Shown piece by piece: positions 2,958 through 5,024 of a stretch of 64,000 nucleotides of DNA. Position numbers and translations under genes: made by a program. Every line of letters begins with the position of its first letter. Position 1 is the first letter of the stretch. This DNA is from Bradyrhizobium erythrophlei (lineage in GTDB: Bacteria > Pseudomonadota > Alphaproteobacteria > Rhizobiales > Xanthobacteraceae). The stretch lies in the NCBI RefSeq assembly GCF_900129505.1, contig NZ_LT670818.1, forward strand, positions 8,031,001-8,095,000, given 5' to 3'. Under the pieces are notes generated by a model. The model did not search any database. It worked only from the letters and a program-made list of their open reading frames with translations, and was not told the DNA's origin.

Positions 2958-3206
2958 CTAGCCACCCCCGTTGTTTCGGTTGATGAGTGGCTTGCCTTCA
3001 GCGATGAATTTCGCCGAAAGGACGAAAGCGCCAATTGCGAAATCCTTGCCGTGCCGAGCGATCATTGCCTCAGCGATTTCGGCTATTTGAACGAAGAAGG
3101 CGTCTTTCGAACTTTCTTCCTCGTTCAATTCCAATTGCTGAGGCGGCGCTCGTTCTTGTCCAGTTTGCGCGACATTTCCCGCAGCTTTAATCCCGATCTT
3201 GGTCAT
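2958..3206 (-). CDS. Small unrecognised protein in the monooxygenase operon
   Basis: An 82-residue protein starting MTKIGIK; I do not recognise a family. It is polar at the N-terminus and has a hydrophobic-amphipathic helix around FAIGAFVLSAKFIAEG. Its ATG at 3206 overlaps the stop of the preceding gene (TGATG), which argues for translational coupling and for both frames being real; a GTG at 3209 is an alternative start. It stands about 195 nt before mimA. It is not the beta subunit or the coupling protein by length or sequence as far as I can judge. A role in assembling or adjusting the monooxygenase is only inferred from position. Confidence 0.6.
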   Translation of the reverse strand: MTKIGIKAAGNVAQTGQERAPPQQLELNEEESSKDAFFVQIAEIAEAMIARHGKDFAIGAFVLSAKFIAEGKPLINRNNGGG

Positions 3207-3613
3207 CACGAATGTCCCGAGCGTTGGTGTTCATTGGTCGAAGGACCGCTTTCAAATTCCAGCAATGACGCATTGAGCCATTCGCGTTCGGCGACGAGAC
3301 GCTGATGCTCCTCCTTGAGCGCCTGCAGACGCGCAGTCGCCATTTCCAGTTCGGCTTGCGCTCCGGCTCCGGCATCTCCCTGCGCAACATCGCGCCGGGC
3401 GCATTCGAGTTCGATTTCCGCTCCGCCACGCGCACTTTCGTTTTTCAGTTGCATCTCATTATTCCGAATCATGCCTTCGATCAGCTTGTGCCGCGCGAGC
3501 ATCCGTTCCCGAGCACGCTCGAGTGCAGCAGCTTCCTCGGCAGTAATTTGCGGTCCGCGCCCGCTGGCGTTCACTGTGATGACCTTCGTTCGATATCCCG
3601 TGCAGAGGATCAT
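3206..3613 (-). CDS. Coiled-coil protein of unknown function in the monooxygenase operon
   Basis: A 135-residue protein rich in Glu, Ala, Arg and Leu from about residue 24 on, with long heptad-like runs (AAALERARERMLARHKL, LQALKEEHQRLVAEREW), so mostly coiled coil. No family is recognised. It starts 17 nt after the alcohol dehydrogenase stop and overlaps the next small gene by the TGATG junction. No signal peptide or membrane segment is apparent. Frames on the other strand here look like shadows. It may be a scaffold or chaperone-like partner, but that is a guess from genomic position alone. Confidence 0.6.
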   Translation of the reverse strand: MILCTGYRTKVITVNASGRGPQITAEEAAALERARERMLARHKLIEGMIRNNEMQLKNESARGGAEIELECARRDVAQGDAGAGAQAELEMATARLQALKEEHQRLVAEREWLNASLLEFESGPSTNEHQRSGHS

Positions 3614-3630: not shown

Positions 3631-4674
3631 TTATGGGATCAGAACCGCGCGCCCATGGATGTGGCCATGGTGCAAGTCGTGCAGAGCATCGTTGGCCTGG
3701 TTCAATTTGTATTCTTTGGTGTAGAGATTGACGAGACCGCGATCCGCGAGCGCCATCAGCTCGACCAGTTCGGCGTAGGTGCCGACCAGATTGCCGACGA
3801 TGGTCTTTTCCGTCGTGATCATGTCGAGGGTCGGCAACTCGATCTTGCCGCCGTAACCCACGATGTAGTAGTAACCGCCGTTCGCGGTCATCGACAGTCC
3901 TTTGGCAATCGCGTCGCCCTCGCCGACGAAATCAATCACGGCTTCGGCGCCGCGCCCGCCGGTCAGCGCCAACACCGCCTCGACTTCGTTGGCGTCGGCT
4001 TTCACGAGATGATGAGCGCCGCATTTCTTGGCGAGTTCAAGCGACTTGTCGGCGCGGTCGACAACAATGATCTCGGCCGCACAGAGCGCCGCGAGCACCT
4101 GAATTCCGATATGTCCGAGACCGCCGGCGCCGATCACCACGACGTATTCGCCCGGCAAAAGATGTCGCGACGCTTTCTTGGCAGCGCGATAAGCCGTCAG
4201 GCCGGCGTCGGTATAGGGGGCGACATCCTTCGGCGCCAGCGACTTGGGTAACTTGATGAGAGAGCGCTGGCCCGTCAGCAGGTATTGCGCGTAACCGCCG
4301 TTGGCGTTGATGCCGGGAAACGAACTGTCCAGTGCGTGCATGTCGTCGCCCCGCCGGCATGCGAGACAATGTCCGCTAGTCACCAGCGGATGACAGATGA
4401 CGCTGTCGCCAACTTTTACGCCTTCGACGCCGGGCCCGATCGCCTCGACCCAGCCGGCATTTTCGTGACCCATGATGTAGGGAAGTTTTACGTCAACCTT
4501 GCTGCGCCAAATGCCTTCGACGATATGCAGGTCTGTACGGCAAACGCCCGCGCCACCGACCCGCACGATCACATCTGCCGGGCGCGTAATCTTTGGATCT
4601 GTCACATCTTCATATTTGACGAACTCTTTTGCCGTCAGCTTTTCGTCAAACGCATGGAGCACCGCGGCTTTCAT
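3631..4674 (-). CDS. Zinc-dependent alcohol dehydrogenase (MDR family), first gene of the operon
   Basis: Medium-chain dehydrogenase of 347 residues that would oxidise the alcohol made by the monooxygenase, for example 2-propanol. Catalytic-zinc residues are present (GVCRTD cysteine, GHEN histidine), as is a Rossmann nucleotide loop GAGGLGHIG. The structural-zinc loop is degenerate: where relatives have four cysteines, this protein reads SGHCLACRRGDDMHA, keeping only two. The start at 4674 follows a GGGGGAGA stretch. A sigma54 promoter lies about 60 nt upstream of the start, so this appears to be the promoter-proximal gene of the monooxygenase operon. Confidence 0.9.
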   Translation of the reverse strand: MKAAVLHAFDEKLTAKEFVKYEDVTDPKITRPADVIVRVGGAGVCRTDLHIVEGIWRSKVDVKLPYIMGHENAGWVEAIGPGVEGVKVGDSVICHPLVTSGHCLACRRGDDMHALDSSFPGINANGGYAQYLLTGQRSLIKLPKSLAPKDVAPYTDAGLTAYRAAKKASRHLLPGEYVVVIGAGGLGHIGIQVLAALCAAEIIVVDRADKSLELAKKCGAHHLVKADANEVEAVLALTGGRGAEAVIDFVGEGDAIAKGLSMTANGGYYYIVGYGGKIELPTLDMITTEKTIVGNLVGTYAELVELMALADRGLVNLYTKEYKLNQANDALHDLHHGHIHGRAVLIP

Positions 4675-4744: not shown

Positions 4745-4760
4745 AGCAAGGGCTGTGCCA
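4745..4760 (-). promoter_or_regulatory. Sigma54 (-24/-12) promoter of the monooxygenase operon
   Basis: The minus strand reads TGGCACAGCCCTTGCT, a full match to TGGCAC-N5-TTGC with the GG and GC elements at the required spacing. It predicts transcription from about base 4734, giving a leader of about 60 nt before the alcohol dehydrogenase. Sigma54 promoters need an AAA+ activator, and such a gene is divergently encoded at 5025. Confidence 0.88.
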
Positions 4761-4815
4761 AGCCGATAACAGGTTGATCTTTTTTGACTTTCTCTGCATC
4801 TGGGTGTGATCGTCC

Positions 4816-4864
4816 CGCTCCGCATCGGACCAGATTTGACGGCCGTTTGTTCCGAGACGGAACA
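4816..4864. promoter_or_regulatory. Two inverted-repeat upstream activator sites
   Basis: A perfect dyad TGTTCCG-AGA-CGGAACA occupies 4848-4864. A second, degenerate copy CGCTCCG-CAT-CGGACCA occupies 4816-4832 with the same 3-nt spacer. Their centres are 32 bp apart (three helical turns) and lie about 90 and 122 bp upstream of the predicted sigma54 start, the usual range for enhancer binding. The divergent Fis-type activator is the likely ligand. Confidence 0.75.
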
Positions 4865-5024
4865 CTTCGAAGACGACCAGGACGAGTAAAGAGGAATTTG
4901 GATTTTCAGCTATTTGATCTTATGATTACCAAAAGCGCGGATGCGCGAACGCGGATGCGCGAAGAAGACGCCATCCGGGCTATGACCAAGAGGAAATCGC
5001 CGAACATCAGTTCCGGGAGGAGCG

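Follow-up and report, generated by a model that had tools for sequence, protein, structure and literature searches.

The window, by which we mean the whole 64-kb stretch of DNA analysed here, carries on its minus strand the first genes of an operon that is best read as encoding a propane/acetone-type monooxygenase, and on its plus strand, divergent to the alcohol dehydrogenase (ADH) gene at the head of that operon, the gene of an activator that we call A (Table 1). Beyond the window the operon continues with genes for a beta subunit, a coupling protein, an amidohydrolase, an FeS-assembly protein and GroEL, after which comes the opposing gene of a second activator, B. The beta subunit, the amidohydrolase, the FeS-assembly protein and GroEL were assigned by Pfam, and the coupling protein, a small ORF, by size and position only; with this protein and the reductase recognised by position or by eye only, the gene set of the mim/prm (group V) clusters is present. 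The hydroxylase alpha subunit resembles MmoX structures (best E 4.1e-63), and its conserved part starts near Met32, at about 2762. Propane or a ketone as inducer, which an earlier sequence-only reading of this DNA had put forward, is a guess from this resemblance in gene content to mim/prm clusters; a Bradyrhizobium-like host, also proposed in that reading, is plausible. The 135-aa protein has a tblastn match in all 24 of the loci with activator A that are compared below and in none of the 28 loci without it; by eye, our impression from its sequence is that it is probably a coiled coil.

Table 1. Features of the locus, numbered from the first base of the window unless a contig is named
Feature	Position	Strand	Remarks
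Reductase	1-992 (ORF 3-992 open), running off window	minus	by eye only
Di-iron monooxygenase hydroxylase alpha subunit	1092-2855	minus	PF02332
135-aa protein, family unassigned	3206-3613	minus	no Pfam/NCBIfam match; between ADH and hydroxylase
Zinc alcohol dehydrogenase (ADH), operon gene 1	3631-4674	minus	PF08240, PF00107
Predicted +1	4734	minus	placed by convention, the C of the GC at 4746 taken as -12
-24/-12 sigma54 promoter TGGCACAGCCCTTGCT	4760-4745	minus	exact consensus match
IHF-like site GATCAACCTGTTA	4767-4779	minus	8/9 fixed positions of WATCARnnnnTTR; 19 bp upstream of TGG
Proximal activator dyad CGCTCCGCATCGGACCA (minus strand TGGTCCGATGCGGAGCG)	4816-4832		3 mismatches; centre 4824, about -90
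Distal activator dyad TGTTCCG-AGA-CGGAACA (TGTTCCGAGACGGAACA)	4848-4864		0 mismatches; centre 4856, about -122
Activator A, 627 aa	5025-6908	plus	GAF PF01590, sigma54-interaction AAA+ PF00158, Fis-type HTH PF02954
Activator B, 646 aa	G000:C1:8023757-8025697, ending 5.3 kb left of window	opposes operon, facing groEL	GAF/AAA+/Fis HTH

The divergent control region

The 64-kb window contains one exact match to TGGCAC-N5-TTGCW, namely TGGCACAGCCCTTGCT, in which the GG and GC of the -24/-12 consensus are correctly spaced. Copies with at most one mismatch number three in the window against 2.15 expected; a full match on either strand arose in 1 of 3000 dinucleotide shuffles of the 350-bp divergent region, and the promoter alone is clearly beyond chance, judged from this one sequence. 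The genome has a single match to rpoN (431.6 bits, cut-off 277.35) and one match over the cut-off for the IHF-alpha gene.

Upstream of the promoter lie two palindromes, which are predicted to be binding sites for activator A. The distal one is perfect and, as an exact sequence, occurs at a single place in the 9,184,651-base genome. Any perfect dyad with 7-bp arms and a 3-bp spacer was met in 70/3000 shuffles of the 350-bp region, and promoter and perfect dyad jointly in 0/3000. The proximal dyad is degenerate: a pair of 17-mers 30-34 bp apart that share at least 11/14 arm positions was found in 35/600 shuffles of the region, so that this dyad is not significant in this sequence alone, and it owes its credibility to its conservation in relatives. 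Genome-wide, single dyads with up to two mismatches were counted at 41 per strand, as compared to 21 when the pattern was reversed as a control, and those with 1 mismatch occur elsewhere just once each at two loci, L002 and L003. Because neither of these has a full sigma54 site within 260 bp of the dyad (best 8/11), we claim no genome-wide regulon.

Between the proximal dyad and the promoter the best match to WATCARnnnnTTR, the IHF consensus as quoted in PMC8899819, is GATCAACCTGTTA. On the other side of the dyads, activator A carries the GAFTGA motif, and its sensor half resembles DhaR (4lrx, E 3.9e-5), the only solved structure to match the sensors of A and B at useful E-values; both proteins show the AcoR-type make-up of GAF domain, AAA+ domain with GAFTGA and Fis-type HTH. 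The leader of the activator A gene holds a perfect 14-bp tandem duplication at 4936-4963 (CGCGGATGCGCGAA twice) that is seen in none of the other 23 aligned loci. A conserved block, TTGGAT-17-TATGAT at 4898-4926 (+), was noticed by eye and is perhaps the gene's own promoter; the scan returned no sigma70 promoter there at its threshold.

Conservation within and beyond the genus

Of 242 congeneric genomes, 53 contain the hydroxylase; 52 loci were examined, G175/L091 being set aside at a contig end. These comprise 24 loci, the window included, with A divergent to ADH, 21 with hydroxylase and ADH but without A, and 7 with the hydroxylase only; over the class, the hydroxylase search found one genome besides our own (G916) among 289. 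In all 24 loci with A the promoter and the two dyads are kept at near-fixed spacing, although imperfectly in three (L135-L137, where the dyads have 5 and 4 of 7 complementary pairs). Each orthologous intergenic region contains one TGGCA[CT]N5TTGC. The distal dyad matches at 14/14 arm positions in 20 loci and at 12/14 in the other four, and stands 97 bp (21 loci) or 96 bp (three loci) from the -24 GG; the proximal dyad matches at 9-12 of 14 positions and stands 63-65 bp from the GG throughout. The best IHF-like match begins 19 bp upstream of TGG in 24/24 loci, with a mean score at that offset of 8.08/9 against 4.54 at the runner-up offset and lower scores in L133 (6/9) and L134 (7/9).

Mean pairwise column identity over the 24 loci is 0.89 for the promoter, 0.88 for the distal dyad, 0.78 for the proximal dyad and 0.68 for the IHF-like site, as compared to 0.46 for the other 256 intergenic columns; for the whole intergenic region, pairwise identity ranges from 0.39 to 0.98 (median 0.57). 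Promoter, both dyads and IHF-like site are thus conserved islands in an otherwise diverged intergenic region. The sequence-only reading had described a promoter of the sigma54 type, a pair of sites upstream of it and a GAFTGA-containing Fis-type activator on the divergent side, and the comparison bears it out on all three, since they are conserved together in the 24 loci. Its statement that the dyads are centred exactly 32 bp apart describes the window and does not serve as a rule: the spacing is 32 bp in 12/24 loci and 33 bp in the other 12.

The 28 loci without A have no dyad-like site above 11/14 within 400 bp (best 8-11). A sigma54-like site is present in them at 11/11 in the 7 hydroxylase-only loci, and at 10/11 in 20 and 9/11 in one of the other 21; upstream of ADH or the hydroxylase it reads TGGCACRAAAAATGCT in most of the 21 (L138-L158) and TGGCACGTATGTTGCT in the 7 (L159-L165). 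Far-side DNA was available for 40 of the 52 loci and for our own, L170 ending before the region. In the group of 21 a different activator, 31-34% identical to B and with the recognition helix SR[AS]TLYRKL, lies beyond groEL in 14/14 loci examined, and the six hydroxylase-only loci (of 7) that were examined, over about 9-12 kb of far-side DNA, showed no enhancer protein.

Outside the genus, relatives of A were recovered from 13 further genomes out of 296 (family search) and 11 further out of 397 (order search), and ADH is divergent to the relative in 23 of these 24 genomes, the exception being L232, which has no ADH and was left out of the dyad comparison. In two further loci, L065 and L070, ADH is not divergent. 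A search with A across the genome contigs recovered 80 loci, for the most part different enhancer proteins at 30-42%, and few of these loci were used. Six loci whose activators are 75-79% identical have promoters at 10-11 of 11 and distal dyads at 13-14 of 14, with palindromicity peaking at 97 and 64 bp. Where activator identity is 56% or lower (17 loci) the site sequence differs, and palindromicity peaks at 96 and 64. When palindromes were scored as twins separated by 32 bp, the placement at about 64 and 96 bp from -24 ranked first of 88 offsets over these 17 loci, and first again with one locus per genus (7 genera); the L228 promoter (TGGCATGAAACTTGGA) was placed by hand for this statistic. 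The paired geometry is kept in four of the seven distant genera (both sites in L216, L231, L228 and L238). L234 has the proximal dyad only at the expected offset, and L229 and L230 have neither there, their TGTTCAnnnnnTGAACA dyads lying about 118 bp from -24. The IHF-like site is missing at the 19-bp offset in the 17 distant loci (2-4 of 9) and is therefore characteristic of this clade. In L221, L231, L233, L234 and L235 a weak IHF-like match, scoring 6-8 of 9, is seen 34 bp upstream of TGG instead.

We note that the sequence of the dyad arms appears to follow the recognition helix of the activator. SRN[TM][IV]YR pairs with TGTTCCGnnnCGGAACA (CCG/CGG arms), SRTT[VI]YKH with CCAG/CTGG arms, and SRNTVYK, the helix of L229 and L230, with the TGTTCAnnnnnTGAACA dyads (TCA/TGA).

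Activator B and a probable exchange of effector halves

B is present in 18 of the 20 A-bearing genomes with informative DNA, beyond groEL in 16 and in tandem after A in two (L136 and L137). Only a remnant of B is left in L118, no B lies within 12 kb in L134, and the B gene of the L129 genome has an in-frame stop. As the dyads stand in L118 and L134, where no intact B was found, B would appear to be dispensable; probably A suffices and B adds an input.

Between A and B about 24% of the residues are shared in the sensor, and 69% in the effector half. In the 18 genomes with both, their sensors are 0.21-0.30 identical, and their effector halves 0.63-0.71 in 16 genomes and 0.97-0.98 in L136 and L137; the AAA+ core is 0.82-0.90 identical as compared to about 0.2 for the sensors, and the recognition helix is identical in the A and B of the window genome. 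The effector half of A resembles that of B (0.69) more than it does the effector halves of A relatives from other genera (0.42-0.49; 0.62 for L228), while its sensor is closer to the sensors of those relatives (0.39-0.47) than to that of B (0.23).

In the sensor tree the A of L136 and L137 groups with A (100/100), and in the effector tree it falls inside the B clade, with B_L136 and B_L137 (99/98). These trees are midpoint-rooted and have no outgroup because several rows had been dropped, namely A_L135 (contig end) and A_L117, A_L119, A_L124, A_L133, B_L131, C_L189 and C_L196 (split motif not found). A and B of L136 share 98.7% DNA identity over 923 bp, and L136 and L137 both show GSFTGA in place of GAFTGA. 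The simplest reading is that recombination replaced the effector half of A by that of B, and these natural chimeras of A sensor and B effector suggest that the effector half can be exchanged.

Near the B gene no dyad beyond chance was found, and sigma54-like sites there are at chance level; a single 3-mismatch dyad lies within the B coding region, and autoregulation of B was not adopted as a candidate. From the identical recognition helix, the nearly identical AAA+ core and the effector swap we infer that B probably uses the same twin dyads as A.

Proposed mechanism, rival readings and known systems

We consider it likely that the 350-bp divergent region is an IHF-assisted, enhancer-type sigma54 switch driven by A and probably also by B. 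RNA polymerase with sigma54 would sit closed on the -24/-12 site, and dimers of A would occupy both dyads, three helical turns apart, from which the AAA+ ring would be assembled. IHF would bend the DNA at its putative site and so let the ring contact the polymerase, whereupon ATP hydrolysis would open the promoter and lead to transcription of ADH, the 135-aa gene, the monooxygenase, the accessory genes and groEL. The GAF-type sensor of A would respond to some small molecule, either substrate or product (an alcohol, ketone or alkane), and B, with the same recognition helix and another sensor, would be a second input on the same pair of sites. The sequence-only reading had called the switch complete; it missed the conserved IHF-like site and the paralogous activator beyond groEL, and with these the mechanism shifts from one sensor to possibly two.

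It is scarcely credible that the promoter and dyads arose by chance from the GC-rich composition of the genome. Degenerate copies are indeed common, as the promoter matches with one mismatch and the shuffled counterparts of the second dyad attest, but the two exact features never arose together in the shuffles, and the comparison across loci contradicts such a reading: the elements are conserved over 24 loci and their geometry is kept in more distant ones. Alternatively, the dyads might be an operator through which the activator gene regulates itself, and not an enhancer of the operon. They do stand between the two divergent genes, some 160-210 bp short of the start of the activator gene, and proteins of this kind can regulate their own genes; however, the spacing of the distal dyad is fixed with respect to -24 in all 24 loci, while its distance to the activator start varies with indels, and we regard this alternative as very unlikely. 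Enhancer and autoregulatory roles may coexist.

We speculate, at about even chances, that two sensors serve one enhancer: the effector halves of the paralogues would be held alike or exchanged by recombination while the sensors differ, and both proteins would drive the twin dyads, perhaps as mixed rings, so that two chemical signals (e.g., an alkane or ketone and an alcohol) are integrated. Somewhat less probable is that A alone acts on the enhancer, B either binding and activating at other places or being a duplicate in decay that resembles A through common descent only. The retention of the dyads in L118 and L134, the in-frame stop in the B of L129 and the finding that neither dyads nor full sigma54 sites exceed chance around B all fit such a role for A alone. 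It sits less easily, however, with the presence of B in nearly all informative genomes and, in 16, at the same place, with the identity of the recognition helices of our own A and B, with an AAA+ core kept so much more alike than the sensors, and with the replacement in L136 and L137 of the effector of A by that of B, the sensor being kept. Moreover, the only other genomic dyads with one mismatch, one each at L002 and L003, have no full sigma54 site close by.

The arrangement is real, well conserved and of a known type; its interest lies in the possibility of two sensors and in the covariation of helix and site. XylR/Pu of the TOL plasmid is alike in its -24/-12 promoter, IHF site and twin upstream sites and differs from the present locus in sensor domain, site sequence and spacing, and MimR, to our knowledge, works without sigma54. 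AcoR and DhaR share the combination of GAF domain, sigma54-interaction AAA+ domain and Fis HTH, DhaR (4lrx) being the match to the sensor halves of A and B, but belong to different operons and respond to different ligands. Likened by description, the nearest studied system appears to be BmoR/PBMO of Thauera butanivorans, in which, as described in PMC8899819 and PMC8784404, a sigma54-dependent activator governs a di-iron alkane monooxygenase operon from an inverted-repeat upstream site, IHF is thought to bend the DNA and alcohols are the inducers. The activator, the type of operon and the inverted repeat are alike; the BmoR upstream site, however, is reported to lie 193 bp upstream of -24/-12, as compared to two dyads at about 64-65 and 97 bp here, and the native promoter has no IHF consensus, whereas here one is conserved.

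The prmABCDGR genes of Methylocella (PMC6778391) and the mycobacterial mimABCD-mimR genes (PMC8394569) likewise combine group V-like monooxygenase genes, GroEL and a regulator gene; in those clusters one regulator is named, as compared to two paralogous ones here. A group V cluster with the same accessory gene set appears in a figure legend of PMC9213486. For two enhancer-binding proteins acting on one sigma54 promoter, LuxO and SypG at qrr1 of Vibrio fischeri, with an OR-like logic (PMC10162802), offer a parallel, although those are phosphorelay response regulators and the present pair are GAF-sensor paralogues that flank their target operon and show a natural swap of effector halves. No description of the arrangement at this locus was found in the open-access literature searched.

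The analysis provides a promoter that can be tested directly, its sites and spacings being exactly defined, for a monooxygenase operon of soil bacteria that has received little study. The pairing of each recognition helix with its site sequence could moreover allow the specificity code of this class of activator to be read. If B does share the enhancer, the locus would be a naturally occurring example in which one AAA+ motor and one enhancer receive input from two sensors, and the natural half-swap could serve in the construction of sensors that respond to small alkanes, alcohols or ketones.
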